Shown here: positions 7,772 through 46,561 of the stretch, in pieces
How the letters are laid out: each line of letters begins with the position of its first letter
Position numbering within the stretch: the first letter of the stretch is position 1
Assembly (NCBI RefSeq): GCF_014803405.1
Contig: NZ_JACYFG010000036.1
Coordinates: forward strand, 496,001-560,000
Length of the DNA: 64,000 nucleotides
Source of the DNA: Pelagicoccus enzymogenes
GTDB lineage: Bacteria > Verrucomicrobiota > Verrucomicrobiia > Opitutales > Opitutaceae
Reading direction: 5' to 3'
The notes under the pieces: generated by a model
What the model saw: only the letters and a program-made list of their open reading frames with translations
Told to the model about the DNA's origin: nothing
The model's database searches: none
Position numbers and translations under genes: made by a program

Positions 7772-7827
7772 TTCCCGTTAGAGACCTTTCACCCTTTCGC
7801 TTCAGCTTGCTACGCTAGGCCGCAGCA

Positions 7828-9159
7828 ATGATGAACTCCACTCCGACTCTCCCCATCACCCTCGAGCGGTTGCAAGGGTACGGCGTAACCGATCCCCAGG
7901 TCCGCATCTATCAGGACACCGCCTACCTTTACGCATCCCATGACGAGCATCCGGAAAACACCGAATTCGTGATGCCTGACTGGCAAGTTTGGAGTTCCAA
8001 GGACTTGGTCAATTGGCAGTACGAAGCGACGCTGTCTCCAGAGGATACCTACATCGGAGCGCCGTTCAAAGGCTGCTGGGCGGGCGACTCAATCTACAAG
8101 AACGGCATCTACTATTGGTGCTTCTCCGCTGTCGATAAGTCCACGGACAAGCACGAAATCGGCCTGGTATCCGCCCCCTCTCCCACCGGTCCGTGGACCG
8201 ATCCCATCGGTGAAGCTTGGATCCCTCACGATTCCGCCCCTACCCACGTTTACGATCCTGGCTTCCTGCAGGAAGATGATGGTACGACCTACATCGTTTT
8301 CGGCGTTTGGGACTACTACATCGCTCGCCTCGAAGGGGACATGAGCGGCCTCGCCGAAACGCCTCGCAAACTCGAGATCCTCGACCCTCGCGGACCCTAT
8401 GGAGAGGGTACAACCGACGACAAACCTTTCCTGCATAAACACGGAAACCTGTACTACCTGTCCTGGGGAGCGTTCTATGCGACCTCTGAAAACCTGTATG
8501 GTCCCTACCAATACAGAGGTTGCTTGATCGACGAAAAGCTCATGGACAGCTCCTTCGCGGAAAAGACCTGGCCCCACGGCCCCCAGCAAGGGCGTCACGG
8601 TTCCTTCTTCGACTGGAACGGCCAAAGCTATTTCATGTACTGCGACATGAGCTTCTCCGGAAACCGCTACTACCGAGGTTCTTGGATCAGCTACGTGCAC
8701 TATCGAGAGAATGGCGAAATTGCGCCCATCGAAATAACATCCGAAGCGGTCGGTCGCTACACAGCTGGAAAGCCAATACCAGCAGCCAATTTCAGCGACG
8801 GAAACGGCATTCAAAAAGTGGAGAATCCAGATGGGAGGCTTTCAATCGCCCCCATCGAAAGGGGTGCCCAGGTCTCCTACCCAAACATCAGAGACATCTC
8901 GACACCGTCCGTCGACGTCATCCTCAGGTTCAGCAAATCAAGCGATTCCCAAACCATCAAAATCTCAAACGGCCACCACCATTGCGGCGAGGCAATCCCG
9001 ATCAACGCAACGGAAGTCCACTACCGCATCGATGCCTTCGTCCCTCATGACGGTATCACCCTCCAATTCTGCGAAGTCAAAACTGAGTCAATCCAACTCG
9101 ACTACCTAACCGTTGCAGAACACCAGCAACGACTCGCAATCCACAATGCAGGATCGTAG
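7828..9159 (+). CDS. Glycoside hydrolase family 43-like enzyme
   Basis: 443 aa with a five-bladed beta-propeller layout. Likely catalytic base Asp22 (GVTDPQVRIYQDTAYLYAS), pKa modulator Asp143 (VYDPGFLQEDDGTTYIVFG) and general acid Glu193 (GPYGEGTTDDKPFLHK) are in the expected order. The last ~110 residues form a separate beta-rich, possibly carbohydrate-binding, domain. There is no signal peptide, so it probably acts on imported oligosaccharides as a beta-xylosidase or arabinofuranosidase-like enzyme; specificity is not readable. Its last ~12 codons (from 9124) and its stop codon lie inside the first copy of the RAYT-linked repeat unit, so its native C-terminus seems to have been replaced by repeat sequence. 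Confidence 0.85.
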   Translation: MMNSTPTLPITLERLQGYGVTDPQVRIYQDTAYLYASHDEHPENTEFVMPDWQVWSSKDLVNWQYEATLSPEDTYIGAPFKGCWAGDSIYKNGIYYWCFSAVDKSTDKHEIGLVSAPSPTGPWTDPIGEAWIPHDSAPTHVYDPGFLQEDDGTTYIVFGVWDYYIARLEGDMSGLAETPRKLEILDPRGPYGEGTTDDKPFLHKHGNLYYLSWGAFYATSENLYGPYQYRGCLIDEKLMDSSFAEKTWPHGPQQGRHGSFFDWNGQSYFMYCDMSFSGNRYYRGSWISYVHYRENGEIAPIEITSEAVGRYTAGKPIPAANFSDGNGIQKVENPDGRLSIAPIERGAQVSYPNIRDISTPSVDVILRFSKSSDSQTIKISNGHHHCGEAIPINATEVHYRIDAFVPHDGITLQFCEVKTESIQLDYLTVAEHQQRLAIHNAGS

Positions 9160-28345: not shown

Positions 28346-28363
28346 CATTCCGTGCCCAACATC

Positions 28364-29911
28364 ATGATACGCAAAATCTCAACCCTCCTCTTCAGCCTCG
28401 TCGCTATCCACTCTTCCCTCTTCGCAGAGAAAGCTCCCAATTTCCTCTTCATCGCCATCGACGACCTCAAGCCAGTGCTCGGCTACCAATCCGAGTTGCC
28501 CGGCAACTTCCTGCAGGAGCTCTATCCCGATCCTGCCAAGCGGCGGGCGATCGCCGCAGTCCTATCCCCCAACCTCGATCGCCTCGCCAGCTCCGGCGTC
28601 GCCTTCAACCGCGCCTTCTGCGCCTCCTCCGTCTGCCGCCCATCCCGCACCGCCATCATGACCGGCTTCCGCCCCCACGTTTCCGGCATCGTCGGAAACG
28701 CCGACGGCTACTTCCGCAAAAAAAGCCACCCCAAGGAACTGCGCGAAGCCATCACCCTGCCCCAGTTCCTGCGCAGCCAAGGCTACTACGCGGCGGGTAC
28801 CGGCAAGATCCTGCATACCGGGTCTGACCTCGAAGCGGACTTTCCCATCTCCTGGGACCAATGGTTCAACGAAGCCCCCGCTCCCGCCGATCGCGGCCGT
28901 CGCGCCCTGAGTCCTTGGTCCACCAACGACAGCAAGAAAAGCAAGATGAAGTTCGGGGCCGACTACGGACCGATCGAGGGCCAGGAGGACTACGGCAACG
29001 CCGACCTGATCGCCCGCCTTCTGCTGGAAGGCACCGTATCCGTGGGCGATCGCTCCGCCAGCATCTCTCCCGATCAACCCTTCTTTCTCGCCTGCGGAAT
29101 CTTCCGTCCCCACCTACCGCTCTTCGCCCCCAAGGAACTGGTCGACTTGTTTCCCACCGAGGACATGGCCCTCAACCACGAGACTCTAGAGTCCTACTAC
29201 CAAGACCTCGCCGACACGCCCGACGGACTACCAAAGGACAAACTCTCCGGCCCGCTCGGCGACGCTCTCAAAGTCGGCCTCGAGCACGGCAAGGAGAAAG
29301 GGATCAAAGACGGCGACCTCATCGCCTACCGCGAGTCCATACGCCACTACCTTGCCAGCGTCGCCCTCGCCGACCGCTGCGTCGGTCGCCTCATCGATGC
29401 CCTCGAAGCCAGCCCTTACGCCGACAACACCATCGTCGTGCTCTGGTCCGACCACGGCTGGTACCTCGGCGAAAAGTACCTCTTCCTCAAGACCCGCGTG
29501 TGGGACGAAGCGGCCAACAGCGTGCTCATCATCCGCGATCCGCGCGAAGGGCAGCAAGGCCAAGGCCCTTGCTCCAGCCCCGTCAACCTGCAGGACCTCT
29601 ACCCAACCATCTCCCAACTCGCCGGCCTTACGCCCCCACCGCACGTGGCAGGCGCCAGTATCCAATCTTTGATACAAGCTCCGCAGGCCGACTGGGACAT
29701 TCCCTCCCTCACCACTTGGCACGGCAACGAATCCATCCGCATCGGCCCCTGGGCCTACCTCCGCTACGACAAGGACCCCGCTCAATCGGAGCTTTACCAC
29801 ATCCCCAGCGATCCGGACGAACGAAACAATCTCGCCAAGGACCCGAAACACCAAGCCAAGCGCCAAGAGCTCGACGCCCTCCTAAACGCCACCCTCGCCT
29901 CTAAAAAGTAG
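28364..29911 (+). CDS. Exported sulfatase, iduronate-2-sulfatase-like
   Basis: 515 aa from ATG at 28364; the upstream GTG at 28352 gives a poorer signal peptide. Signal peptide MIRKISTLLFSLVAIHSSLFA, then NFLFIAIDDLKPVLGYQ (metal Asp-Asp). The formylglycine Cys is in SSVCRPSRTAIMTGFRP, the GTGKILHTG Lys and WSDHGWYLGEKY Asp-His follow. The DDLKPxLG and SDHGWxLGE wording is typical of iduronate-2-sulfatase-like S1 members. It is expected to desulfate saccharides in the periplasm. A formylglycine-generating enzyme is needed and is not in the window. Confidence 0.9.
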   Translation: MIRKISTLLFSLVAIHSSLFAEKAPNFLFIAIDDLKPVLGYQSELPGNFLQELYPDPAKRRAIAAVLSPNLDRLASSGVAFNRAFCASSVCRPSRTAIMTGFRPHVSGIVGNADGYFRKKSHPKELREAITLPQFLRSQGYYAAGTGKILHTGSDLEADFPISWDQWFNEAPAPADRGRRALSPWSTNDSKKSKMKFGADYGPIEGQEDYGNADLIARLLLEGTVSVGDRSASISPDQPFFLACGIFRPHLPLFAPKELVDLFPTEDMALNHETLESYYQDLADTPDGLPKDKLSGPLGDALKVGLEHGKEKGIKDGDLIAYRESIRHYLASVALADRCVGRLIDALEASPYADNTIVVLWSDHGWYLGEKYLFLKTRVWDEAANSVLIIRDPREGQQGQGPCSSPVNLQDLYPTISQLAGLTPPPHVAGASIQSLIQAPQADWDIPSLTTWHGNESIRIGPWAYLRYDKDPAQSELYHIPSDPDERNNLAKDPKHQAKRQELDALLNATLASKK

Positions 29912-29917
29912 AAGCTG

Positions 29918-29981
29918 GAAGCGGCCTTGCGCCGCGATTCACCACAACCAAATCAAGTAGGAGCGACCTCGGTCGCGAAAA
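29918..29981 (+). repeat. REP pair (variant R2 + R2 copy 3)
   Basis: GGAAGCGGCC-TTGC-GCCGCG followed by GTAGGAGCGACC-TC-GGTCGCGAAAA at 29957. Same arrangement as 28287-28345. Confidence 0.65.
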
Positions 29982-30000
29982 TCCCCCCGTAACCACTCCC

Positions 30001-31593
30001 ATGATACGCAATATCTTCCTAACAACCCTCGCCACCGTCACCCTCCTAGCCTCATCGTCCCACCTTCAAGCCGACGACCTCAGCCCCTCCCGCCCCAACA
30101 TCCTCTTCGCGATCGCCGACGACGCCAGCTGGAAACACTTCGGCGCCTACGGAGCCACCTGGATCGACACGCCTCACTTCGACCAGCTCGCAAGCAACGG
30201 CCTGCTCTTCACCAAGGCCTACACTCCCAACGCCAAGTGCGGTCCCTCCCGCACCGCCCTGCTCACCGGACGCAATTCATGGCAACTGGAGGAGCTCGCT
30301 AACCACTGGGTCGACTACCCTGTCGGAAAGTACCAAACCTATCACGAGACCCTCGACAAAAACGGCTACCACGTCGGCTACACCGGAAAAGGCTGGTCTC
30401 CCGGAGACCCCGGCACCCTGCCCAATGGCAAGAAACGCGCCCTGCTCGCCAAGACCTACAATCAGGCGAAGCTGAATCCACCCGCTGAATACATCTCCAA
30501 TATCGACTACACGGAAAACTTCCGCAACTTCCTCGCCGACCGCCAAGCGGGCCAACCATTCTGCTTCTGGTACGGCTCCAACGAACCGCATCGGGCCTAC
30601 GAATACGGAGCCGGCATCAAGTACGGCAACAAGCAACTCAGCGACATCCCCAAGGTTCCCGAGTTCTGGCCAGATACCGAGGAAGTTCGCACCGATATGC
30701 TCGACTACGCCTACGAGATCGAATGGTTCGACAAGCACCTCGGTAACATGATCGAGATCCTGCGCGAAACCGGCGAACTGGACAATACCCTCATCATCGT
30801 CACCTCCGACAACGGCATGCCCTTCCCCCGAGTCAAAGGCCAAGAGTACGAATACTCCAACCACATGCCCTTCGCCATCATGTGGCCAAACGGCATCACG
30901 CGTCCGGGCCGCATCATCGACGACTACGTCAGCTTCATCGACGTTGCCCCCACCATTCTCGAGCTGGCCCAAGTCGACGGCGAGGCTGAAGGCATGGCAC
31001 CCATCACCGGCAAGAGCCTGACCAGCCTTCTCTATTCCGATCGCTCCGGACGTATCGATCCCGCTCGCAACTATGCGTTAATCGGCAAAGAGCGTCACGA
31101 CATCGGCCGTCCCAACGATACAGGCTATCCCATTCGCGGCATTTTCAAGGACGACTTCCTGCTCCTGCAGAACTTCAAGACGGAACGCTGGCCTGCTGGA
31201 CATCCACAAACTGGATACATGAATATCGACAAAAGCCCGACTAAAACCGCGGTGCTCGAAGCACGCTACCAACCCGACCAACGCCTTTACTGGCAGTGGA
31301 ACGTCGGCAAGCGCCCCGAGCTCGAATTTTACGACGTGGCCAATGACGAAGCCTGTATCCACAACCTGGCCAACAGCCCCGTCTACCAAGAACGGATCAA
31401 AGAGATGCACGCCCTCATGCTGGCAGAGCTGGAAAAACAGAACGACCCTCGCCTCGCCGGCAAGGGCGACAGCTTCGACCAATACGAATTCGGGCGGGAC
31501 GGAATGATCAACTTCTTCAACAAGCTCATGAACGGAACGCAAGAAGACATGGGCTGGTACAACCCTGCCGACGTGCAACCCGAAGAAGACTAG
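30001..31593 (+). CDS. Exported sulfatase, heparan N-sulfatase-like
   Basis: 530 aa. Signal peptide MIRNIFLTTLATVTLLASSSHLQA, then PNILFAIADDASWKHFGAYG with the metal Asp pair. The formylglycine Cys is in NAKCGPSRTALLTGRN, followed by GYTGKGWSPGDPG and VTSDNGMPFPRVKG. The DDASWKHxGxYG/NAKCxPSR combination is typical of N-sulfoglucosamine sulfohydrolase-like S1 members (S1_8-like). It probably acts in the periplasm. It is in tandem with the previous sulfatase, separated by a REP pair, which suggests a polymer carrying more than one sulfate ester type. Confidence 0.9.
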   Translation: MIRNIFLTTLATVTLLASSSHLQADDLSPSRPNILFAIADDASWKHFGAYGATWIDTPHFDQLASNGLLFTKAYTPNAKCGPSRTALLTGRNSWQLEELANHWVDYPVGKYQTYHETLDKNGYHVGYTGKGWSPGDPGTLPNGKKRALLAKTYNQAKLNPPAEYISNIDYTENFRNFLADRQAGQPFCFWYGSNEPHRAYEYGAGIKYGNKQLSDIPKVPEFWPDTEEVRTDMLDYAYEIEWFDKHLGNMIEILRETGELDNTLIIVTSDNGMPFPRVKGQEYEYSNHMPFAIMWPNGITRPGRIIDDYVSFIDVAPTILELAQVDGEAEGMAPITGKSLTSLLYSDRSGRIDPARNYALIGKERHDIGRPNDTGYPIRGIFKDDFLLLQNFKTERWPAGHPQTGYMNIDKSPTKTAVLEARYQPDQRLYWQWNVGKRPELEFYDVANDEACIHNLANSPVYQERIKEMHALMLAELEKQNDPRLAGKGDSFDQYEFGRDGMINFFNKLMNGTQEDMGWYNPADVQPEED

Positions 31594-33187: not shown

Positions 33188-33293
33188 TTATGACCGTTTC
33201 CAGCAGGCGACACTGCGTAATTTGAGGCGATTTGCCCCGAAACGGGGACATCTTCGGATCTGGCGCAGCCGATGCTCACGGGACACCAGAATC

Positions 33294-33321
33294 GTAATAC
33301 GATTACACTAATTCGTATTAC
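33294..33321. promoter_or_regulatory. NikR-type operator upstream of the ABC transporter
   Basis: A 28-bp inverted repeat: GTAATACG-N12-CGTATTAC (the pairing extends by one A-T inward). Read as GTAATA-N16-TATTAC it has the same geometry as the E. coli NikR site (6 + 16 + 6). It lies 30 bp before the binding-protein ATG. A matching site lies upstream of the NikR-like gene at 39032. Confidence 0.75.
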
Positions 33322-33351
33322 CACCTATTGAAACTGAACAGCCATAACTCT

Positions 33352-34344
33352 ATGAAGTTCCTCCGTCTCGCAAAACGCGCCGTCTCCTCCCTCGCCCTCC
33401 TCGCCGCCTTGCCGCTCGCGCAGGCTGAACCGCTCAAGATCGGTTACTCCGACTGGCCAGGCTGGGTTGCCTGGGAAATTGGCATCCAAAAAGGCTGGTT
33501 CGCCGAAGAAGGCGTGGAAGTCGATTTCCAGTGGATGGACTACGTCGCATCCATGGACGCCTACGCCGCCGGCTTGCTCGACGCGGTTACCATGACCAAC
33601 GGCGACGCCCTCGTCACCGGCGGCACCGGCAAGCCTTCCGTAGGCATCATCATCAACGACTTCTCCAACGGCAACGACATGATCGTGGCCGCTCCGGGCA
33701 TCGATTCGCTCGCTGACCTGAAGGGCAAGAAGATCGGCCTCGAAGAAGGATTCGTGATTCATCTTCTCCTTATGAAGGGCGCCGAAGCCGCTGGCATCGA
33801 TCCTTCCGAATTCACCATCGTCAACACTCCCACCAACGAGACGCCTCAAGTGCTCGCCTCCGGAGCCGTCGACGCCATCGGAGCCTGGCAGCCGAACTCC
33901 GGACAAGCCCTCAAGACCGTGGCCAACTCAAAGCCCGTTCTCACTTCGGCCGACGTTCCTGGCGTCATCTACGACCTGCTCTGCGTCGACCCTGAAAGTC
34001 TGGAAAAACGCCGCGGCGACTGGATGAAGGTGGTCAAGGTCTGGTACCGCATCGTGGACTTCATCAAGGACGAGGACAACCTCGACGAAGCTTTGGAAAT
34101 CCTCTCCGCCCGCGTGGCCATCACTCCAGAAGAGTACGAACCGTTTTTCGCCGGAACCTACATCCTTAGCTTGGAAGAAGTCCTCCCCATCTGGAAAAAG
34201 GCGAAGGGCCTCAAGTCCGTCTACGGTTCCACGGTCATCTCCGACGAATTCAACGTATCCATGGGAGTATACGACGAGCCGCTCAAAACAGAGCAGTACC
34301 TCGATCCTAGCCTTACCAAGGAATACGCCAAGTCAGTCAAGTAA
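33352..34344 (+). CDS. ABC transporter substrate-binding protein (NitT/TauT, guanidine/urea-cluster type)
   Basis: 330 aa from ATG at 33352, with signal peptide [25 protein letters not shown]. The NMT1/SsuA-like fold is visible in [39 protein letters not shown] and [16 protein letters not shown]. This subtype is usually annotated as urea-carboxylase-related ABC transporter binding protein. It is periplasmic and likely delivers guanidine, urea or a related nitrogen compound. A hairpin and 123 bp separate it from the permease. Confidence 0.88.
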
Positions 34345-34379
34345 GCTACCGAGCTGGTTCACTTCCTCGATTTCCCCCC

Positions 34380-34407
34380 AAGGGCGGGCCCTGCCCGGTC
34401 CGCCCTT
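34380..34407 (+). other. Intercistronic hairpin between binding protein and permease
   Basis: AAGGGCGG pairs with CCGCCCTT (8 bp plus partial inner pairs), with only a weak T-run after it. Such a hairpin commonly lets the binding-protein mRNA be more abundant than the downstream permease; that role is inferred. Confidence 0.6.
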
Positions 34408-34467
34408 GTTTCCCTCTGCCTCCCGATCCGGCCTGTCCTCCCGCGCGTCCACCCACCTCACGCCTGA

Positions 34468-35859
34468 ATGAAAATTGGAAAAAGAAGCGGCAAGGTGTCT
34501 AGTCCTTGGCTCGCTATCCGCAAAGACCTAGACGCGAGACAACGCTTCACCCTGAGCTGTCTCTCCTTCATCCTGCCGCTGGCCGCTTGGGCCTTCGTCA
34601 GCTATACGCCCTTCATCTGGCACCCTGACGTCAAGCTGCAGATTTCCGCCGACCGCTCCGACGTCACCACCGTTTACACCGCGGGCGACCACCTCTCCAA
34701 AACCTACTTTCCCGAGTTCGTCGCCGCTATCCAAGCCGACAATGCCGCAACCCTCGCCGCCCGCGAAACGGGCGAAGTCGAGGGACGTGGCTCCACCATC
34801 CGCCGGGCCAACCTCAAGATCGTCCGCCACATCTCCGACGCCGCCGTGGCAAACGATTGGCTCAGCCGCGAGGAAGCGAAAGAGGACGAGCTGCTCTACG
34901 AAGTCTGGCGAGACGTCGCTACCGGCAAGCTCACCGCCAAAACGGTTAAGTTCACCGAGGAGAACCAAGCCATCATCAAGCGTAATTGGGCAATGATGGA
35001 AGAGCTCTCTCCCACCTTCAGCTCGCGGACGCTTCCAGAAGAGCCCATGGAAAAGCTGGTTCCGCAAGGCGTATCCGCCAATCCCGTTTACCTGCCCGCT
35101 CCACACGAAGTAGTGATAAAGGGGATACAGGACTTCACCATCGAATCCGTCGACGACAAGCCCTCCATGCTCGACCGCTACAAGCACTCGCTCAAGATCG
35201 TCTTTTCCGGATTCCTGCTCGCTGCGCTGGTCGGCGTCCCCCTCGGAGTGCTTTGCGGAACCTTCGACTTTTTCTCCAAGCTCTTCGAGCCCTTCATCGA
35301 CTTTTTCCGCTACATGCCCGCTCCGGCCTTCAGCACCTTGCTGGTCGCCGTCTTCCTCGCCCACGACGCGCCCAAAATCGCCCTGGTGTTCGTAGGCACC
35401 TTTTTCCAGCTGGTCCTCGTCGTGGCCAACACCACCCGCCAGCTCGACGCCTCCTTGCTGGAAGCGGCCCAAACGCTCGGCGCCAAAAACCTGACGCTCA
35501 TCCGACGCGTCATCCTGCCCGGCATCACGCCAAACCTTTACAACGACATGCGCATCCTGCTGGGCTGGGCCTGGACCTGGCTGGTCATTGCCGAGCTCAT
35601 TGGCGTTAAGAGCGGACTCACCGAGTTCCTCGAAACGCAAGGCCGCTGGCGCAACTTCGACAGCGTGTTCCCCATCATCATTCTCATCGGGATGTCGGGA
35701 TTCGTCACCGACCAATTCCTCTCTTCCCTGCGAAAGTACCTCTTCCCTTGGACGCCCGAGGCATCGGAGAAAAAACACGGCTTCATCGGCCGCTTCCTTC
35801 TCTGGGTGGTCGATCGCAATGCCTACAGCACCCCTCTCAACGGAAAGGCGAAACAATGA
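34468..35859 (+). CDS. ABC transporter permease with large extracytoplasmic insert
   Basis: 463 aa. TM1 is ~33-48. Residues ~50-235 are a polar, mostly helical segment not found in ordinary NitT/TauT permeases (usually ~260 aa). Then comes the permease core with the EAA loop [21 protein letters not shown] (~330-350). The stop overlaps the ATPase start (ATGA), so the two are translationally coupled. Confidence 0.87.
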
Positions 35860-36758
35860 GCGACTCCATCCAGCTGCCGAGCTACAAGGACCAGAGCGAT
35901 GAGGTGCGCGCCCGCTTCGCCGAAATCTACAAGCGCCCCATCAAGCTGCAAGCCAAGGGCATCAGCAAGAGCTTCACCACACCGAAAGGCACCGTAGACG
36001 TCCTCAACCCGATCAGCTTCAACGTGCACCGACGGGAGTTCATCTCCGTCATCGGCCCTTCCGGCTGCGGAAAGTCGACCTTGATCCGCATGCTGGCTGG
36101 CTTGGAAACCTTGTCCGGCGGGACCTTCCTTCTCGATGGCAAGGAGCCAAGCGGCCCCGGAGCAGATCGCGGCATGGTTTTCCAAGGCTATACCCTCTTC
36201 CCCTGGCTCAGCGTGAAGAAAAACGTCATGTTCGGCCTGGAAGTGAACGGACGGTCCGGAGCTGCCGTCGAGCAAGAGGCCATGCAATGGATCGACCTCG
36301 TCGGCCTTTCCCACGCGGCCGAAAAATATCCGAGCCAGCTTTCTGGTGGCATGAAACAACGCGTGGCCATCGCCCGCTCGCTCGCCAACCAGCCGCAGAT
36401 TCTCTTCATGGACGAGCCCTTCGGCGCCCTCGATCCACACACCCGTTGCCAGATGCAGTCGCACCTGCTGGAGATATGGAGGAACGTGGACGTCACCATC
36501 ATGTTCGTCACCCACGACTTGGACGAAGCCATCTACCTTTCCGATCGCATCCTCGTCCTCAAGGCCAACCCCGGCGAGATCCACGAGTTCATAGAGGTAC
36601 CTGTGCCACGCCCTCGCACCAGCGAACAGCTACTTAGCCCGGAGTTCCTCGCGACCAAGCAACGACTCGAGGAGCTCATCCACCCCAAGCATGAAGCAAC
36701 CGAAGCCGGCGACCTCGCCATCGTTCGCATGACTGACGTAAACGATGTCGTTGAGTAA
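35856..36758 (+). CDS. ABC transporter ATP-binding protein
   Basis: 300 aa from ATG at 35856, which overlaps the permease stop (a longer frame to 35748 lies inside the permease gene). Walker [11 protein letters not shown]-loop [12 protein letters not shown], signature [16 protein letters not shown], Walker [13 protein letters not shown] and switch His FVTHDLDEA are all present. It energises import by the preceding permease and binding protein. A ~30-residue N-terminal extension precedes the usual domain. Confidence 0.92.
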
Positions 36759-37548
36759 CCATAGGATGGATACATTTTCCACACAACAATGGGACGAGCT
36801 CACCTGGGAGGAAATCCAATCCCTGGTTTCCTCCGGCATGGACGCAGCCATTCTTCCCATCGGAGCTACCGAGCAACACGGCCCCCAGCTCACCGTGGGC
36901 ATGGATTCATTGCTGGGGCGCGCCTTGTGTTCCAGCGTTGCAACCCACGCGGGCGTTCCCTGCCTCCCTCTCTTGCCATATGGCTGCTCCCTCGGCCATT
37001 CCCACCGCTGGCCAGGTACGCTGGCCCTCAGTCCGCAGACCTTGATCTCCGTCATCACGGACATCGGCGATTGGCTCTATCCGGCAGGCATTCGCAAACT
37101 CTTCCTCGTCAATTCGCACGTCACCAACGAAGCGCCGCTTCGCTGCGCCTTAGAAATCCTGCGCTCTCGCTACGACGATTTCTGTATAGCGCTTTTCAAT
37201 ACGGGAAAGCTCAACCCCGAGATCGCTGCCGCATTTTCCCAAGATGCAGACGACTGGCACGCCAACGCGGCGGAGACCAGCCTCGTCATGCACCTCCAAC
37301 CCGCCGCCACGCGGCCCGAGAAACTGAAATCCTCCGACGACCCGGATCGCACTGCCGGCAAGGTTTTCTCCCATCCCGTCAATCGCACCAGCTTGAACGG
37401 TGTCACCGGAGCTCCTAGCCAAGCCACTGCCCAAGCCGGGAAAGTCCTTTTCGAAAAACTGGAGCAAGCCCTCGTCGCACTCATCGAAAGTGGACTCCAC
37501 GAGTCTCCCCCGCTGCCCCATTCCTATTTCTCCCAAACCGAGGCCTAG
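36745..37548 (+). CDS. Creatininase-family amidohydrolase
   Basis: 267 aa from ATG at 36745, overlapping the ATPase gene by 14 bases; ATG at 36766 (MDTFSTQQW) is equally possible. Creatininase-fold metal ligands are visible: [19 protein letters not shown] (Glu, His and Asp) and NSHVTNE in place of the usual NGHGGN, plus HANAAETS. Family members hydrolyse cyclic or linear amides (creatinine, FAPy, mycofactocin precursor). Placement with guanidine/urea genes suggests an amidase feeding the carboxylase with a guanidino or ureido compound; substrate unknown. Confidence 0.82.
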
Positions 37549-37571
37549 AGCCTCCCTTGAACCGATTTTAT

Positions 37572-39002
37572 ATGACAGCCGTTTCAGAAATCTACCAATC
37601 ACACAAAAAGGCTCGTGGCTTCGCCTTCGAGCAAAGCTACCCTTGGAGCGACGAGCAATTGCGTGGCATCCAGGAGTCTCTCAAGAAAGCGGGAGTCAAG
37701 TATTGCGTCGGCTCCTACGTCGACCTGCATGGCACTCCCAAGGGCAAGTTCGTCCCTCTTTCCCACTTCGAACACTTCGCCCACGGCTCCGAACTCTACA
37801 CCGGCTACGCCCTCGACGGCGTGGGACAAGCGCCCAACGACGACGAGATCGCCTCCGTACCCGACCTCGGCATGATCATTCCCCTACCCTGGAATCCAGA
37901 GGTCGCCTGGATCCCCGCCGACAACACCTTGCACGGCAAGCCCTACGAAGTCAGCGCTCGCGTAGCGTTGCAGAAAGTTCTGGCCCAAGCGAAAGAAATG
38001 GGCTTCGGCATGAACTTGGGCATCGAAGCGGAAGTCTTCGTACTCAAGCAAGACGAGGACGGACGTCTCCAAATCCCCAATACGGACGATAACCTCACCA
38101 AGAGCTGCTACGACGTCAAGCGCTTCATGGACCGCTACCAGTGGCTCGACAAAATGGCGACAGCTATCGACGACCTTGGATGGGAGCTCTACTCGCTCGA
38201 CCACGAAGACGCGAACTCGCAATTCGAGTTCGACTTCAACTATGCCGACGCCCTCACCATGTGCGACCGTTTCACCTTCTTCCGCATGATGGCTAAACAT
38301 TACGCGGCAGAAGAGGATCTCGTCGCCACCTTCATGCCCAAGCCGTTTGCGGACAAAACCGGCAGCGGCGCTCATTTCAACATGTCTCTCTTCGACCTGG
38401 AAACAGGCGAGAACCTTTTCAAGCGCCCACACGCAGAAGACCCGCGCGGACTCGGCATCACCGAGCTCGGTTACCAGTTTATGGCCGGCATCCTCAAGCA
38501 CGGTCCCGCCCTCTGCGCCACCTTCGCCCCCACCGTAAACAGCTACAAACGACTCGTAAGAAGAGGTCTCATGGCCTACTACTCCTGGGCTCCTGTATTC
38601 AATTCCTACGGACGCAACAATCGAACCAACTCCCTGCGCGTGCCCATGTCCGGCGGACGCGTCGAATCCCGCAACGCAGACGCCGCTTGCAACCCTTACC
38701 TCGCCGCGACCCTCGCCTTGGCCGCAGGACTTGAGGGCATCCGAGAAAAACTCGATCCCGGCGAGCCCCAAGAAGTCAACCTCTACGAACTCTCTCCCGA
38801 GCAAATGAAGGAGCGCGGCATCAGCCAGCTCCCCACGACCCTCGACGAAGCCGTACAAGCCTTCGCCAACGATCCTTTCACCAAGGCCACCCTCGGCGAA
38901 ACCCTTTATTCCGAGTTCGTTAGCTACAAATCAGAGGAATGGCGACTCTACCACCAGAGCGTCAGCCAATGGGAAATCGATAAGTACGCCCGACTTTACT
39001 GA
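37572..39002 (+). CDS. Glutamine synthetase
   Basis: 476 aa from ATG at 37572. GS domains are readable: beta-grasp [31 protein letters not shown] (metal Glu), [40 protein letters not shown] (ATP/Glu binding). Tyr within NLYELSPEQ matches the adenylylation-loop position of type I enzymes. The sequence is a divergent GlnT/GSI-type form that recurs beside urea-carboxylase genes. It would convert released ammonia to glutamine, although gamma-glutamylation of an amine cannot be excluded. Confidence 0.88.
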
Positions 39003-39031
39003 TAAAATCCTTGCTCAATAAACGACCAAAG

Positions 39032-39059
39032 GTATTACGTTTTTATAAATTCGTAATAC
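39032..39059. promoter_or_regulatory. NikR-type operator upstream of the NikR-like gene
   Basis: A 28-bp inverted repeat: GTATTACG-N12-CGTAATAC. It is the mirror arrangement of the site at 33294-33321 with the same half-site GTAWTACG and spacing. It ends 3 bp before the ATG, leaving no room for a ribosome site if that ATG is used. Confidence 0.75.
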
Positions 39060-39062
39060 GTC

Positions 39063-39506
39063 ATGACTTCCGACGACATGACCGACCCCGCAGAACGCGT
39101 TAGCATCACCATCCCTCGCTCCGTGCTTGCCAAGTTTGACAGCATGCTGGCCGACCGTGGGTTTGCCAACCGATCGCAAGCGATCACGGAGATCCTGAAT
39201 CGCGAAATCATCGAGGCCAGTTCCGAGAAGGAGGAGCAGGTCATGGCTGGTACGATAACTCTCTTCTACAGCACCCGGCGCAACAACCTGCAAAGCACCC
39301 TCAGCAAGATCCAGCGCAAGCACTTGGCCGAAGTTATCAGCTCGCTCCACGTCCAACTCGAGGACGACCACATCATGGAAGTCCTCGTCGTGCAAGGTCC
39401 CGCCGCCAAGCTGCGCTCGATCTCCAACGAGCTCATCACCTGCAAGGGCGTCAAAACCGGCAAGCTCAACCTCTCTTCCATCATCATGCCGCCCCTTCAC
39501 CAATAG
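39063..39506 (+). CDS. NikR-like ribbon-helix-helix regulator with altered metal site
   Basis: 147 aa. Residues ~10-55 form the ribbon-helix-helix domain (RVSITIPRSVLAKFDSMLADRGFANRSQAI), with the DNA-contacting strand almost as in NikR (RVTITL). Residues ~62-140 form the ACT-like NikR C-terminal domain (AGTITLFYSTRRNNLQ, SSLHVQLEDDHIMEVLVVQG, CKGVKTGKLNL). Gap-free alignment to E. coli NikR places Arg85, His96, Gln98 and Ile104 at nickel ligands His76, His87, His89 and Cys95, so three of four are lost. It probably senses something other than nickel. ATG at 39063 lies against the operator; ATG at 39078 is an alternative start. It sits between the transport/GS genes and the carboxylase genes. 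Confidence 0.88.
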   Translation: MTSDDMTDPAERVSITIPRSVLAKFDSMLADRGFANRSQAITEILNREIIEASSEKEEQVMAGTITLFYSTRRNNLQSTLSKIQRKHLAEVISSLHVQLEDDHIMEVLVVQGPAAKLRSISNELITCKGVKTGKLNLSSIIMPPLHQ

Positions 39507-39548: not shown

Positions 39549-40265
39549 ATGTCACTCATCCACAAAGAAACTCTCACCGGCGCCGGCATGTGGTCAAAGG
39601 TCGTCAAACGCGGACGCTCGCTCAAGCTCACCGACCTCGAAGGCGGAGCCAACGTGGGCATGCTGCTCTACAACGCCTACGAGAAGCACGAACGCTACAA
39701 CATGCCCGACACCCTCAAGGGGCAGTACATCTTCCACCTCAAGGCGCCCTACTGCTTGCACTCCGACATGGGGCGCATCTTCGCGTCCATAACAGCGGAA
39801 AGCTCCGGTTGGCACGACACCGTCAGCGGTGCCTCCGACGCCAAAGCCGTCAGGGAGAAGTACGGCCAAGGCGACTACCAAGAGCTGCGCAACGACTTCT
39901 ACCGCAACGCCCAGGAGTGTTTCCTTATCGAGCTCGCCAAGTGGGGACTAGGCAAACGCGACCTCGTGCCAAACATCAATTGGTTTTCCAAGGTGGTCGC
40001 GGACGAAGAAGGAAAGCTCAGCTTCGTCGAAAACCACAGCAAAGCCGGCGACAGCGTCGAGCTCCGCTTCGAGCTGGATACTTTGGTCGTGCTCAACACC
40101 TGTCCGCACCCCTTCGATCCAAACCCTGAATACAGGCCCAAGCCCGTCGAGCTAGCCATCTCCGAGGCTGCGCCTGTGGCCGAAGACGATCCCTCCCTCA
40201 AAGTCCGCGCCGAAAACCAGCGAGCCTACTACAACACCACCGTCTACAACAAGCTCCGCTTCTAA
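39549..40265 (+). CDS. Urea-amidolyase-associated protein 1 (DUF1989; CgdA/B-like)
   Basis: 238 aa DUF1989 (UAAP1) protein: [86 protein letters not shown] and NTCPHPFDP are all family-typical. Paired DUF1989 proteins next to a carboxylase and AtzF have been described as the carboxyguanidine deiminase CgdAB in guanidine-degrading bacteria. The assignment of this copy to one subunit is not certain. Confidence 0.87.
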
Positions 40266-40336: not shown

Positions 40337-40972
40337 ATGCTTACCGAATCGACCCTCGATCCCGCCAACGCCGTCTACCGCCAAGTCATAAAAGCCGGAG
40401 ACCACTGGAGCCACGTCATCAAAAAAGGACAAACCTTCCGCATCCTCGACCTCGAGGGTAACCAAGCTGCGGATACGCTATTCTACAACGCACACGACCC
40501 CGTCGACCGCTATTCCGCCAGCGATACCATCCGCTGCCAGCAAGCCCTCTATCTCACCACCGGCAGTAAGCTCATGTCGAGCGGAGGCCATGCCCTCCTC
40601 GAAATCACCGCTGACACTTGCGGGCGTCACGACACCCTCGGCGGCGCCTGTTCACGGGAGTCCAATACCATGCGCTACGCCATCGAGAAGGAACCCATGC
40701 ACGCCTGCCGCGATTCCTTCATCTGCGGCTTGCACGACCACTCCGACGACCTCGGGAAGCGCGACATCACCTGCAACATCAACTTCTTCATGAACGTGCC
40801 CGTCACCCCGGAAGGAGGCCTCAGCTTCGAAGACGGCATCAGCGCGCCCGGCCGCTACGTGGAGATGCTCGCCCTCATGGACGTCATCGCGCTCATTTCA
40901 AACTGCCCGCAGCTCAACAACCCCTGCAACGCCTACAAACCAACCCCCGTCGAGGCCATCATTTGGGACTAA
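40337..40972 (+). CDS. Urea-amidolyase-associated protein 2 (DUF1989; CgdA/B-like)
   Basis: 211 aa DUF1989 (UAAP2) protein: [73 protein letters not shown] and [14 protein letters not shown]. With UAAP1 it would form the heteromeric deiminase that turns carboxyguanidine into allophanate if the pathway is guanidine-based. It is separated from UAAP1 by 71 bp that contain a REP. Confidence 0.87.
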
Positions 40973-41075
40973 CTTATTTTCCACGAAGCACATTAACACC
41001 ACTTAGATTTGTCTAGATATTCATTCGTGAAACTTCGTGCCATTCGTGGGCAAAAAAACTTCCTTTAAAGCCACC

Positions 41076-44000
41076 GTGTTCAAAAAAGTTCTCATCGCTA
41101 ACCGCGGCGAAATCGCCTGCCGCGTCATTCGAACCCTCCGCAAGATGGGTATCGGCTCCGTCGCCATCTACTCCGACGCCGATCGCTTCGCCCAACACGT
41201 CGACCTTGCGGACGAAGCCATCCGCATCGGCCCGGCTCCCGTCAAGCAGAGCTACTTGAACATCGAAGCGATCCTTGAAGCGGCCAAATCGAGCGGAGCG
41301 GAAGCCATCCATCCCGGTTACGGTCTGCTCTCCGAAAACGCCGACTTCGCCACTCAAGTGGAAGCTGCCGGAATCGCCTTCATCGGCCCGACTCCCCAGC
41401 AAATGATCGAGTTCGGACTCAAGCACACCGCTCGCGAAATCGCCATCGCCAACGAAGCGCCCCTCCTCCCCGGTAGCGATCTGGTGGATACGCTCGACAT
41501 CGCCTGCTCGGAAGCGAAACGCATCGGCTACCCCGTCATGCTCAAGTCCACCGCGGGCGGCGGCGGCATCGGCATGCGGCTTTGCTGGAACGAGGAGGAA
41601 CTCAAGGACGCCTACGAATCCGTCAAACGCCTCGGCGAAAACAATTTCGCCAATAGCGGCATTTTCCTCGAAAAGTTCGTACAACGAGCTCGCCACATCG
41701 AAGCCCAGATCTTTGGCGACGGGGCCGGCAAAGTCATCGCCCTCGGAGAGCGCGATTGCTCCGTACAGCGCCGCAACCAAAAGGTTATCGAGGAAACGCC
41801 CGCTCCCGCGATCTCCGAGGAATTGCGTAACCAACTGCTCGATACAGCCGTTCGCCTCGCCCAAGGCGTCAACTACCGTTCCGCCGGCACCGTCGAATTC
41901 GTCTACGACGTAGATGCCTCCGCCTTCTATTTCCTTGAGGTAAATACCCGACTACAAGTCGAACACTGCGTTACGGAAGAAGTCACCGGAGTCGACCTCG
42001 TGGAATGGATGGTCAAGCAGGCCGCCGGCGAAATGCCGGACCTTGATTCCATCGAAATAAAACCCAGCGGAGCCGCCATCCAGGCTCGCGTCTACGCGGA
42101 GGATCCCAACAAAAACTTCCAGCCCTCTTCCGGCCTACTCACCGAGGTCAGTTTTCCCTCAGACGTGCGCGTCGACTCGTGGATCGAAACCTCCACCGAA
42201 GTTTCCGCTTTCTACGATCCGCTCTTGGCCAAAGTCATCGCCAAAGGCAGCGACCGCTTGCAAGCGATCGCTGCCCTGGCAAACGCCCTCTCCAAGTCGC
42301 GGGTGGAAGGCATCGAGACCAACTTGGAGTACCTCGAGAACATCCTCGCTACCGAAACCTTCCAAGGCGCCACTCACACAACGAAATTTTGCGACGGACT
42401 CGTCTACCACCCCAGCACCATCGACGTGCTCGAGTCAGGCACCCAAACGACGGTGCAGGACTATCCGGGCCGCGTGGGCTACTGGGATATCGGCGTCCCC
42501 CCTTCCGGTCCCTTCGACGCCTACGCTTTCCGGCTCGGCAATAAAATCTTGGGCAACGACGAAAAGGCTGCCGGCTTGGAAATCACCGTGACCGGTCCCA
42601 CGCTCGTCTTCAACCACGCCACCACAATCGCCCTCACCGGAGCCCCCACCAACGCCACGCTCAACGAGCAGCCCATTCCCTTCTGGCGCGCCATTCCCGT
42701 AGCCGCTGGCGACACCTTGTCCTGCGGCAAGGTAATCGAAAACGGATGCCGGGCCTACCTCAGCGTACAAGGCGGCCTGGACGTACCCGATTACTTGGGC
42801 AGCAAGTCGACCTTCACCCTCGGCCAATTTGGAGGACACTGCGGGCGTACTCTGACGCTGGGGGATGTGCTTCACTTCCACTCCCAATCTACGTCTTCAT
42901 CTTCTTCCCTACAACCGCTCGAGGAAATCGAAGCGTCTCAGATTCCTGAATACAGCCACCATTGGGACATCCGTGTGCTCTACGGACCCCACGGAGCCCC
43001 AGACTTTTTTACCGAAGAAGACATAGCGACCTTCTTCAGCACCGACTGGGAAGTCCACTATAACTCCGCCCGTACCGGCGTGCGCCTGATCGGCCCCAAG
43101 CCCAAGTGGGCCCGCACCGACGGCGGCGAAGCGGGCTTGCACCCTTCCAATCTTCACGACAACGCCTACGCCATCGGCACCGTCGATTTTACCGGGGACA
43201 TGCCCGTCATCCTCGGCCCCGATGGTCCATCGCTAGGCGGCTTCGTTTGTCCCGCTACCATCATCAAGGCTGACCTGTGGATGATGGGACAACTCAAGCC
43301 CGGCGACACCATTCGCTTCCAGAAAGTCGACCAGACAACAGCCACCCGTCTGGAGATGGAGCACGAATCATTTCTTTCAAGTAGGAGCGACCTTGGTCCC
43401 GAAACACCTCCAAAACCTTCCCGCTACGGAGCGGAAGACGCCATCCTCGAGTCCCTGCCTGAACAGCCGGAGCTCGATCGCCCCTCCGTCTGCTACCGTC
43501 GCTCTGGAGACAAGTATCTGCTTGTTGAATACGGAGAAATGAAGCTCGAGTTGAATCTCCGTTTCCGGGCGCACGCCCTTATGGAGGCAGTTAAGGCATC
43601 GAGTATCCCCGGTATTCTTGAGCTTACGCCCGGAATCCGCTCCCTGCAGATCCACTACGAAAGCCTTCGCTTACCACTCGACGAGCTAGTCGACAAGCTG
43701 AAGCAAATCGAGGAGGAACTCCCCCCCATCACGGAAATGAAGGTGCCGACTCGCACCGTCTACCTCCCACTTTCATGGGACGATGAAGCGACCCAGCTCG
43801 CTATCAAAAAGTACGAGTCCGTCCGCAAGAACGCGCCTTGGTGTCCCTCCAACATCGAGTTCATTCGCCGCATCAACGGCCTCGACTCCATCCAGGACGT
43901 GAAGGACATCCTCTTTAACGCGAGCTACCTCGTGATGGGCTTGGGCGACGTTTACCTCGGAGCCCCCGTAGCCACGCCAGTCGACCCGCGTCACCGCCTT

Positions 44001-44693
44001 GTCACTACAAAGTACAACCCTGCCCGCACTTGGACCCCCGAAAACGCGGTCGGAATCGGTGGAGCCTACCTCTGCGTCTACGGCATGGAAGGACCCGGCG
44101 GTTACCAATTCGTGGGTCGAACCGTGCAAATGTGGAATCGCTACAAGCAGACGAAAGACTTCAAGGAAGGGAAACCTTGGCTGCTGCGCTTCTTTGACCA
44201 GATTCGCTTCTACGAGGTATCCGCGGACGAGCTGCTGCAAATGCGGGAAGACTTTATCCACGGTCGCTTCGAGCTGAAAGTGGAAGAGTCCACCTTTGAT
44301 CTGGCTGCCTACAATAAATTCTTGGCCGACAACGAAACCGAAATCAAAACCTTCAAGGACAGGCAGCAAGCCTCCTTCGACGCCGAAAGGCAGCGTTGGA
44401 TCGAGACTGGACAAGCAACATACGTCGCAGACGAAGCCGCCTTCGGTACGATGGAAGAAAGCGAGATTCCGGAAGGCTGCGTTCCTGCTCAAAGCCACGT
44501 CCCCGGAAGCGTATGGAAAATTTGCGTACAGGAGGGAGACAAGGTAAAGAAAGGCGACGTACTCTTGATCGTGGAATCGATGAAAATGGAAATCAACATC
44601 ACCGCTCCCGCAGACGGCACAGTCGAAACCTTGCTTACAAAAGAGGGAAATCCCACCAACAAGGGCCAGAACCTAGTCCTAATCAAAGAATAA
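41076..44693 (+). CDS. Biotin-dependent urea/guanidine carboxylase
   Basis: 1205 aa from GTG at 41076, chosen because [17 protein letters not shown] is the normal start of biotin carboxylases; the frame could begin at GTG 41037. Residues 1-445 are the biotin carboxylase ([22 protein letters not shown]). Then comes the carboxyltransferase, a KipA-like part (~450-765: [25 protein letters not shown]) and a KipI-like part (~790-1010). The carboxyl-carrier domain at the end has biotinyl Lys1170 in [12 protein letters not shown]-dependent carboxylation gives allophanate (urea) or carboxyguanidine (guanidine). Neighbouring DUF1989 genes favour guanidine. A REP (43381-43404) lies inside the coding sequence at the KipA/KipI linker. 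Confidence 0.93.
43381..43404 (+). repeat. REP-like hairpin R2 inside the carboxylase gene
   Basis: GTAGGAGCGACC-TTG-GTCCCGAAA is nearly identical to the intergenic R2 copies at 24986 and 29957. It is in frame and encodes SSRSDLGPE in the linker between two carboxyltransferase modules. The stem carries one mismatch (GTCCC rather than GTCGC). Confidence 0.7.
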
Positions 44694-44767: not shown

Positions 44768-46561
44768 ATGAATCTCTCCTTCGACACAACCACGCTCCGC
44801 GAGGGTTACCTCTCCGGCAAGTTCACCGTTTCCGATATCATACGCGAGGTCCTGGCTCGCATCGAGGCAGGCGACTCCAAAATTTGGATATGCGTCGACA
44901 CTGCGGATCGTCTCCTTGCCCAAGCGAAGGAGATCGAAGAGAAGGACCCAAACAGCCTTCCCCTCTATGGCATCCCTTTCGCGGTGAAGGACAACATCGA
45001 CGTAGCCAAACTTCCTACAACAGCAGCCTGTCCCGACTACCGCTACTTCGCCGACGAAGATGCCACCGTGGTCGCGCAACTGCGAGCTGCCGGAGCAATC
45101 CCGATCGGCAAGACCAACCTAGACCAATTCGCAACCGGTCTGGTAGGCGTCCGTTCTCCCTACGGAATTCCCGGTAACGCCTTTGATCCGCAATATATTC
45201 CAGGCGGATCCAGCTCTGGATCCGCCGTATCCGTAGCCCTAGGACAAGTGTCCTTCTCACTCGGCACCGATACCGCCGGATCCGGTCGCGTCCCCGCATG
45301 CTTCAACAACCTCGTTGGCCTCAAGCCATCCCGAGGATTGCTTAGCTCGACTGGCTTGGTACCCGCCTGCAAGTCGCTGGATTGCATCTCGATCTTCGCC
45401 CTCAACGCTTTCGACGCTCAGGCCGCGCTGCGAGTCGCCGCCAGCTACGATCCGAGCGATGCCTATTCGAGACCCAATCCCCTCAGCCTCGAATCGCCCC
45501 GCCGCGCCTATCGCGACGGCATGACTTTCGGCGTACCCTCGCCCGAGCAGCTCCAGTTCTTCGGCGACGAGAACTACCTGAACCTGTACCTCCAATCAAT
45601 CGCTCGTCTCGAGGCGCTGGGCTTCAAGAAGCAAGTCATCGACTTCTCCCCCTTCCTCGCCGCCGCGCGCCTGCTCTACGAGGGCCCTTGGGTCGCGGAA
45701 CGCTACTGGGCCATCCAAGACCTCATCAAAGACGCGCCCGAAGCCCTGCACCCCGTCACCCGAGCCATTATCGAAAAAGGCATCGACGGAACGGCTGTCG
45801 ACGCCTTCGACGCGACCTACAAGCTTCAGGCCTTCCGCCAAGAAACCCTTTCGCTTTGGGAAAGCGTCGACTTCCTAGCAACCCCCACGGCCGGTACCCA
45901 CTACACGATAGAGCAGCTTGAGGCAGACCCCATCCAGCTGAATTCAAACCTTGGATACTACACAAACTTCATGAATCTGCTCGATCTGTCCTCCGTAGCA
46001 GTTCCCACCGGTTTCACTCCCAAGAAAATGCCCTTCGGCATTACCCTAATCGCTCCCGCCTTCCACGACGAAAAGTTGCTCTCAATCGCTCACAAACTCC
46101 AACTCGCCTCGGAACTGAGGATGGGAGCGACCGAGCACCAACGCTTCGAGCCCGTCCTTCCCGCCCAGTGGGACAGCGCGCCCATCGCCGTATGCGGAGC
46201 GCACATGAGTGGACTTCCCCTCAATCATCAGCTCACGGAGCTCGGCGCCACTTTCCAACGATCCACCAGCACCAGCCCCCGCTACCGTCTCTACGCCCTG
46301 CCCGGAACGAATCCCCCGAAGCCAGGCATGGTACGCGATGAAAGCAATGGAGCCGCCATCGAGCTCGAGCTATGGAATCTGCCGCAGTCCCAATGGGCCG
46401 CTTTCATTTCACAGATTCCCTCGCCTCTCGGCATCGGCAACATCGAGCTATCGGACGGCAGTTTCGTCAAAGGCTTCCTCTGCGAGCAATGGGCAACTTC
46501 CCAAGCCGAGGAGGTGAGCGCCCATCGGAGCTGGAGAGAGTACCTCCGGGCCCGTTCCTAG
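44768..46561 (+). CDS. atzF: Allophanate hydrolase (AtzF type)
   Basis: 597 aa. Residues ~1-450 are an amidase-signature domain with Lys74 (FAVKDNID), cis-Ser148 (GGSSSGSAV) and nucleophile Ser172 (DTAGSGRVP). The spacings of 74 and 24 residues equal those of AtzF (Lys91, Ser165, Ser189). Residues ~470-597 form the AtzF C-terminal domain (VCGAHMSGLPLNHQL, SSFVKGFLCE-like end), which in AtzF decarboxylates the intermediate. Allophanate gives two ammonia and two CO2. It follows the carboxylase gene after 74 bp and ends the cluster. Confidence 0.93.
   Translation: MNLSFDTTTLREGYLSGKFTVSDIIREVLARIEAGDSKIWICVDTADRLLAQAKEIEEKDPNSLPLYGIPFAVKDNIDVAKLPTTAACPDYRYFADEDATVVAQLRAAGAIPIGKTNLDQFATGLVGVRSPYGIPGNAFDPQYIPGGSSSGSAVSVALGQVSFSLGTDTAGSGRVPACFNNLVGLKPSRGLLSSTGLVPACKSLDCISIFALNAFDAQAALRVAASYDPSDAYSRPNPLSLESPRRAYRDGMTFGVPSPEQLQFFGDENYLNLYLQSIARLEALGFKKQVIDFSPFLAAARLLYEGPWVAERYWAIQDLIKDAPEALHPVTRAIIEKGIDGTAVDAFDATYKLQAFRQETLSLWESVDFLATPTAGTHYTIEQLEADPIQLNSNLGYYTNFMNLLDLSSVAVPTGFTPKKMPFGITLIAPAFHDEKLLSIAHKLQLASELRMGATEHQRFEPVLPAQWDSAPIAVCGAHMSGLPLNHQLTELGATFQRSTSTSPRYRLYALPGTNPPKPGMVRDESNGAAIELELWNLPQSQWAAFISQIPSPLGIGNIELSDGSFVKGFLCEQWATSQAEEVSAHRSWREYLRARS

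Follow-up and report, generated by a model that had tools for sequence, protein, structure and literature searches.

The subject of this report is a regulator gene in a 64,000-nucleotide stretch of the Pelagicoccus enzymogenes genome (contig NZ_JACYFG010000036.1, positions 496,001 to 560,000; hereafter the window), where it stands within a cluster of genes predicted to serve guanidine use. The protein that it encodes is probably a nickel-blind descendant of the nickel regulator NikR, which would repress the guanidine-use operons through two operators until a pathway-derived signal, with guanidine as the likeliest candidate, releases it. A broader and more tentative proposal, to which we give slightly less than an even chance, is that a whole clade of such NikR descendants, found in both Verrucomicrobiota and Proteobacteria, has exchanged nickel for guanidine as its signal and thus takes, with protein sensors, the place that riboswitches have in other systems.

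Two 28-bp palindromes of 8-12-8 layout had been described in an earlier note on this DNA, one placed 30 bp before the gene for the binding protein of an ATP-binding cassette (ABC) transporter and the other against the regulator gene. Both are present where that note had put them, without a single mismatch. The distance of 30 bp is exact, and the second site ends 3 bp ahead of the first ATG of the regulator gene, which has a second in-frame ATG at 39078. When up to three mismatches were permitted, the window gave no other match to the 8-12-8 pattern, and 100 shuffled versions gave a mean of 0.13 matches and never two. In the genome (6,225,872 bases in 60 contigs, 95.92% complete), these are the sole matches at zero or one mismatch, with one further match at two; at up to three mismatches the 21 matches are near the number found with a reversed-pattern control (19).

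The 28-bp length and the spacing are identical to those of the known NikR operator GTATGA-N16-TCATAC (PMC7055735), as the earlier note had recognized. The half-site letters GTATGA/TCATAC are not matched by the window operators, whose outer hexamers are instead GTATTA (one base different) and GTAATA (two). Since every GTAWTAC 7-mer is palindromic about its central base, the two units of an operator may be taken as forming either an inverted repeat or a direct one. Judged by their layout, the two sites are NikR-type operators composed of two GTAWTAC units 21 bp apart.

The regulator was assigned to the NikR family by several measures. It carries a ribbon-helix-helix (RHH) domain (PF01402, 21.4 bits, cut-off 20.5) and a NikR_C domain (PF08753, 80.2 bits, cut-off 22), matches the NikR proteins of P. 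horikoshii (E 7.5e-26) and E. coli, and exceeds the cut-offs of two NCBIfam NikR equivalog models (NF003381, 118.5 against 105; NF002815, 84.6 against 83). An AlphaFold model made from 6 sequences is of moderate quality (predicted local distance difference test score 74.9, predicted template modelling score 0.51), and its best matches among solved folds are NikR chains. NikR is tetrameric, and its nickel domain has an ACT-like fold.

The planar nickel site of NikR is made of His87, His89 and Cys95 together with His76 of a neighbouring subunit (PMC7055735). At positions 76, 87, 89 and 95 (E. coli numbering) the window regulator has R, H, Q and I, and thus His87 alone is kept. It also has Q102 where nickel NikRs have K or R, and its C-terminal tail reads MPPLHQ. 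Because three of the four ligands are lost, nickel is unlikely as the signal, a point that the earlier note had not seen, and the automatic ‘nickel-responsive NikR’ labels given by NF003381 and NF002815 mislead here.

The nickel ligands of relatives differ according to whether the regulator is linked to the guanidine pathway. We searched 141 related genomes (that of P. enzymogenes included) and a phylum sample of 387, and compared the list of genomes with a regulator homologue with the list of those encoding UAAP2, a predicted carboxyguanidine deiminase subunit. In the first set a homologue occurs in 41 genomes and UAAP2 above its cut-off in 37, of which 35 belong to the 41 (G042 and G128 do not); six genomes have a homologue and no UAAP2, namely four with NikRs that have the ligands HHHC at the four positions and two with interrupted copies. 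The phylum sample has a homologue in 134 genomes, UAAP2 above cut-off in 45 and both in 38. As all of these genomes are related, the counts do not represent independent events.

The linkage analysis covered 79 NikR proteins, from which the matches of the 134 genomes that were weaker than about 1e-21 were mostly left out; gene starts were extrapolated from tblastn matches. Also excluded were L037 and L038 (copies of L074 and L075), L053 (a near copy of L052), L132 and L049 (one stop-interrupted gene) and L171 (no tblastn match), and L077 is cut by a contig end. HHHC is found in none of the 55 pathway-linked proteins and in 23 of the 24 unlinked ones, the remaining one being an interrupted HHHY protein. 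In a tree with 25 others, the 55 linked regulators form one side of a single branch (support 100/99). After the addition of six Proteobacterial copies, described below, the 61 linked regulators still lie on one side at the same support, although the Acinetobacter row has a long branch and its position inside the clade is unsure. Residue 102 is Q in 54 of the 55 linked proteins (the last has a gap) and R or K in all 23 HHHC rows. Furthermore, a C-terminal tail of the form hydrophobic-P-(P or Q)-hydrophobic ends 60 of the 61 clade members, the sole miss being cut by a contig end, and none of the 25 others. Together with E91 (E. coli numbering), Q102 and this tail rank among the features that best mark the clade.

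The function of the linked genes was predicted from their domains and from two carboxylase residues. Both subunits of a carboxyguanidine deiminase (TIGR03425 and TIGR03424) and an allophanate hydrolase (TIGR02713) are encoded in the cluster. In carboxylases of this kind, an aspartate at K. lactis position 1584 is required and an aspartate at 1330 tells the guanidine type from the urea type (PMC11410670). When the window carboxylase was aligned to 5i8i, D717 fell at position 1330 and D971 at 1584. Among 58 loci tried, all 52 carboxylases covered at both positions have both aspartates; one covered at the first position alone has aspartate there, and five loci gave no cover. Because both residues are present, the cluster looks made for guanidine rather than urea, a distinction missing from the earlier note, and urea was rejected as the carboxylase substrate. 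The nickel-dependent guanidinase (GdmH) pathway also uses guanidine, but with a different, nickel-containing enzyme (PMC12186494); no GdmH gene was found among the ten cluster proteins scanned.

The earlier note had held that its reading would fail if orthologous clusters lacked the palindromes; they recur there. A site matching at least 12 of 16 positions is present in all 34 transporter promoters examined (L052 and its near copy L053 both included), whereas permuted half-sites gave a mean of 0.82 and a maximum of 7. The same scan found sites in 18 of 40 regulator promoters (four unlinked NikRs included) and 15 of 34 UAAP1 promoters, and in none of 34 UAAP2, 33 carboxylase and 16 glutamine-synthetase promoters. 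Across the 141 genomes there are 25 sites at up to one mismatch, against 13 with the reversed pattern. All 14 exact sites precede the transporter, regulator or UAAP1 gene of a guanidine cluster; one of the exact sites, met blind on a separate contig, precedes the UAAP1 gene of the split cluster L076. Six of the 11 one-mismatch sites lie within guanidine clusters, and of the other five, two were inspected and adjoin no cluster gene, while three are in genomes that have no homologue.

The spacing of the half-sites is nearly invariant. In the promoters of 58 clusters, 46 half-site pairs are 21 bp apart, one 20 bp and one 41 bp, and the rest of those loci (1.07 Mb) contains a single pair, at 46 bp. 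Promoter alignments of Pelagicoccus and close relatives show that halves and spacing are kept while the flanks drift. The letters change by branch: at up to one mismatch, GTAWTAC pairs make up 36 of 43 operators on the side of the window (Verrucomicrobiota outside the xHHY and HLHS branches), direct GTAACAC repeats make up 20 of 31 in the xHHY branch, and some distant members have halves of the GTATGAC/GTCATAC type. In 19 loci whose sites were weak, absent or unscored, perfect inverted repeats were also sought de novo; the matches were only sporadic, among them 28-bp repeats with GTCATAC and GTATGAA halves in L136 and L143.

The presence of the operator follows that of the regulator gene. Among 60 clusters with a regulator gene (L179, where it is interrupted, included), the 21-bp pair is exact in 33, present at up to one mismatch in 49 and at up to two in 58. 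In contrast, it is found at no mismatch level in any of eight clusters lacking the gene, six of which come from two closely related lineages and one of which, L177, is on a contig without a transporter gene. The difference at up to one mismatch (Fisher p 1e-5) is between rows that are related and not independent. The pairing of operator and regulator that the earlier note had put forward is thus strongly supported by comparison.

In our judgement it is hardly tenable that the palindromes serve a different regulator, form structural repeats rich in A and T, or are paired by chance. They are AT-rich and conspicuous within a window of 58% GC; against this, the 21-bp spacing is fixed across 58 clusters, the sites are absent from the eight clusters without the regulator gene, and unlinked NikR genes have the same plan upstream. 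A chance pair or AT-rich repeat was rejected on the shuffles, the genome scan and the fixed spacing, and the alternative as a whole is largely refuted.

The same operator plan bears on the idea of an ordinary, nickel-responsive NikR whose target happens to be a nitrogen operon. The plan is shared by unlinked HHHC NikRs of the phylum, 8 of 23 of which have an exact 21-bp pair upstream of their own gene, and the window protein passes both equivalog cut-offs. However, three of its four ligands are replaced, no linked protein is HHHC and the clade stands apart from the HHHC proteins; in addition, the carboxylase route depends on ATP, and it is the alternative guanidinase route that has the nickel enzyme (PMC12186494). 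No nickel-uptake, urease or hydrogenase targets were found, as the only sites of the genome at up to one mismatch sit in the guanidine cluster, and likewise in relatives. Nickel regulation was rejected on the loss of ligands in the window protein and its linked relatives, and we hold an ordinary NikR to be very improbable. Because the unlinked HHHC NikRs share it, the 21-bp plan looks like an inheritance from NikR, in which case the change lies in the signal site.

Sigma-54 appears to be involved in control of the importer operon, a feature that had escaped the earlier note. A motif with GG-N10-GC lies upstream of operator 1, which is 17 bp downstream of the -12 element, and an alignment of 7 transporter promoters revealed a second conserved block at this place that fits a -24/-12 promoter. 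Among promoters with an operator at up to two mismatches, 39 of 44 transporter promoters have a motif of at least 9/12 consensus that precedes the operator by 0-19 bp (shuffles: mean 0.54, maximum 3), and such a motif occurs in 10 of 16 UAAP1 promoters, in 8 of which it abuts the operator. Regulator-less transporter promoters, searched over 300 bp, keep the motif in 7 of 7 cases and lack the operator. The genome carries one RpoN gene. Scoring used the usual sigma-54 and -35/-10 consensus sequences.

A possible -35/-10 promoter of the regulator gene would place its -10 element inside the left operator half. The register TTG-N(15 or 16)-TATTAC was read by eye in all six aligned regulator promoters, five of which match the consensus at 8/12 positions and that of the window, by our count, at 7/12. 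A standard sigma-70 scan of the transporter and regulator promoters of the window found nothing. Operator 1 lies at and just after the start site expected from the sigma-54 motif, a position that would favour a repressor over an activator.

These features suggest the following mechanism. The regulator, an RHH protein of NikR descent in which the nickel site would no longer be in use and which is probably a tetramer, would bind at 33294-33321, just after the start region of a sigma-54-driven importer operon, and at 39032-39059 over its own promoter, which leads into the genes for deiminase, carboxylase and allophanate hydrolase. Binding would repress both units and hence the regulator itself, in line with the autoregulation and the repression of the transporter operon that the earlier note had predicted, a reading that the comparisons support. 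Release may follow when a pathway signal, guanidine being the likeliest, binds the C-terminal domain, while nitrogen shortage, acting through RpoN and presumably an enhancer-binding protein, would activate the importer operon.

Several observations weigh against this proposal. The operator is weak in distant members: 9 of the 60 clusters reach it only at two mismatches, a level at which up to 12 of 52 transporter promoters match other spacings as well, and two clusters (L144 and L179) have none at up to two mismatches. The density of half-sites, 2.5 per kb in promoters against 0.09 elsewhere in those loci, is partly by construction because the six half-site words were picked after seeing sites in these loci, which is not so for the spacing. 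The sigma-54 motif of the window has only 9/12 consensus, just 4 of 29 regulator promoters contain one at this level or better, and operator position suggests repression and does not prove it. Moreover, the clade has varying residues at the former nickel positions (R, Y or H at 76; H, Q, L, N, R or S at 87; Q, L, H, F or M at 89; Y, T, I, V, S, N or R at 95), which by themselves therefore outline no single new ligand pocket. Finally, a branch of 19 regulators (17 HHHY, one HNHY and one HSHY) retains two or three of the histidines and might yet bind a metal.

The last point raises an alternative in which a metal, be it nickel or another, is still sensed by the HHHY branch, the arginine branch to which the window protein belongs has turned into a repressor independent of metal, and the clade is united by its targets and not by its signal. 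In 17 of the 55 linked proteins three histidines are kept with Tyr for Cys, and the operators differ as well, GTAACAC repeats in the xHHY branch facing the GTAWTAC pairs of the remaining Verrucomicrobiota outside HLHS. Nevertheless, because both branches share targets, Q102 and the PP tail, one common signal is suggested, and we regard this alternative as improbable.

A weightier alternative, though still an unlikely one, is that the regulator does act through these operators but responds to a signal other than guanidine, for example carboxyguanidine, allophanate, ammonium or the glutamine state, or works mainly as a ligand-free autoregulated brake. The ACT-like fold often binds amino acids, a glutamine-synthetase-like gene is present in 16 of the loci of relatives examined for operators, and the variable residues at the old nickel site would agree with such a signal. 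In contrast, linkage to guanidine-type carboxylase clusters holds with or without glutamine-synthetase and creatininase genes, which suggests guanidine or one of its products as the shared element. We favour guanidine as the signal that would release the repressor.

Guanidine-I and guanidine-II riboswitches control operons for importer, carboxyguanidine deiminase and guanidine carboxylase in Raoultella, Klebsiella and Vreelandella (PMC12186494, PMC12508155). The genes controlled are of the same kinds as those studied here; the searched loci differ in that no riboswitch was found in them, and control is predicted to reside in a protein and DNA operators. A guanidine riboswitch, frequent but not required in the carboxylase pathway, was not found in the window, which has no Rfam match at gathering score. 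A search of the guanidine cluster at E values up to 5 gave six Rfam matches, all far below gathering scores and none to a guanidine family. Rfam riboswitches were absent from the seven of the eight regulator-less loci searched and from six plasmid loci, and seven regulator-bearing loci gave a ureB RNA only. The guanidine-I riboswitch was found in none of the 141 genomes under strict filters that detected the B. subtilis control, with 25 candidates scored in each of the 20 genomes shown. Known riboswitch control was rejected for the window and the searched relatives.

Beyond Verrucomicrobiota, a tblastn search of plasmid records gave 62 matching records, of which seven were inspected. Six of the seven loci (three of Novosphingobium and one each of Sphingobium, Asticcacaulis and Acinetobacter) have the regulator among guanidine-pathway genes. 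None of these six regulators is HHHC (the ligand positions read QHQV, AHFS or LHFS), all have Q102, and both guanidine-type aspartates are encoded in the loci. The seventh protein is HHHC with K102 and is encoded beside urease genes. Gene order is as in the Verrucomicrobiota clusters in five of the six, and the Acinetobacter stretch has carboxylase, allophanate hydrolase and transporter genes and no UAAP gene. Operators at up to one mismatch occur in four of the six (L185, L186, L189 and L190, not L187 or L188). On the Acinetobacter plasmid (L185), a sigma-54 motif at 7794 is followed by an operator at 7815.

Two of these plasmids have further features. On that of Acinetobacter sp. NCu2D-2 (L185, 7794-16405), regulator and operators lie near genes for a 2-oxoglutarate-Fe(II) oxygenase, a hypothetical protein and a small multidrug resistance (SMR) exporter, a set that recalls the riboswitch-controlled methylguanidine operon of Vreelandella (PMC12508155). 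In Novosphingobium resinovorum (L189) there are two regulator matches within 4 kb, at 8001 and 11546, with operator-like sites about 110 bp after the first and about 50 bp before the second.

With NikR, as known from the E. coli nik operon and P. horikoshii (2bj1), the regulator shares RHH and NikR_C domains, fold, and a 28-bp operator of two halves with the same spacing. It differs in the loss of three of four nickel ligands in the window protein, Q for K/R at position 102, the C-terminal PP tail and membership of a separate clade, and in that its targets belong to the guanidine pathway rather than to nickel transport and its operator comes just after a sigma-54 motif. In the portions of open PubMed Central papers available to us, we found no account of a nickel-blind NikR in guanidine control; the accessible part of a nickel-genomics paper (PMC2667541) does not mention the cluster, that of PMC9788540 deals with riboswitches and small RNAs, and in PMC12153308 the word NikR is the name of an author. 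A 2025 review names guanidine-binding transcription factors as something that future work may reveal. If the proposal is true, the regulator could be a protein guanidine sensor of the kind that the field has been missing, and a guanidine-responsive repressor would be useful as a biosensor. The clade offers a testable candidate with operators mapped in dozens of genomes, and an example of a metal sensor that seems to have lost its metal site yet kept its operator plan.

Table. Predicted genes and control sites of the guanidine cluster (window coordinates)
Feature	Position	Strand	Sequence or basis
Sigma-54 (-24/-12) promoter of transporter operon (predicted)	33261..33276	+	TGGCGCAGCCGATGCT; GG-N10-GC, 9/12 consensus
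Operator 1 (predicted)	33294..33321	+	GTAATACG-N12-CGTATTAC; 30 bp ahead of binding-protein ATG (33352)
ABC transporter substrate-binding protein (predicted guanidine importer)	33352..34344	+	NMT1/NMT1_2
ABC transporter permease	34468..35859	+	PF00528
ABC transporter ATPase	35856..36758	+	PF00005
Creatininase-family amidohydrolase	36745..37548	+	PF02633
Type III glutamine-synthetase-like ligase	37572..39002	+	TIGR03105, 613.9 bits, above cut-off
Possible -35/-10 promoter of regulator gene	39011..39038	+	TTGCTC-16-TATTAC; -10 inside left operator half; weak
Operator 2 (predicted)	39032..39059	+	GTATTACG-N12-CGTAATAC; ends 3 bp ahead of first regulator ATG (39063)
NikR-fold regulator (RHH + NikR_C)	39063..39506	+	Domains, fold, homology to NikR
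UAAP1, carboxyguanidine deiminase subunit (DUF1989)	39549..40265	+	TIGR03425 above cut-off
UAAP2, carboxyguanidine deiminase subunit (DUF1989)	40337..40972	+	TIGR03424 above cut-off
Biotin carboxylase, urea/guanidine type	41037..44693	+	TIGR02712, 1918.7 bits
Allophanate hydrolase	44768..46561	+	TIGR02713 and NF006043 above cut-off

The genes of the cluster follow one another on the + strand in the order binding protein, permease, ATPase, creatininase-family protein, glutamine-synthetase-like ligase, regulator, UAAP1, UAAP2, carboxylase and allophanate hydrolase. The best NCBIfam match of the binding protein, TIGR03427 (‘putative urea ABC transporter substrate-binding protein’), scores 142.2 bits, under the cut-off of 333.9, and no solved structure is close to it (best E 6e-7). 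The creatininase-family and glutamine-synthetase-like genes (36745-39002) are part of the cluster in Pelagicoccus and in some, not all, of the others, and perhaps handle a substituted guanidine by an additional route or serve gamma-glutamylation.

Interrupted regulator genes were seen in L179, L078 and L049. The first of these also lacks the operator, L078 and L049 have no adjoining guanidine cluster, and L049 keeps a 13/16 site upstream. In other Verrucomicrobiota (L173-L178), guanidine clusters have three DUF1989 genes (UAAP1 and two UAAP2-like copies) and neither a NikR-like regulator nor an operator. Upstream of the cluster in the window, at 28352-31593, two tandem sulfatase-like genes were noted by eye from their translations.

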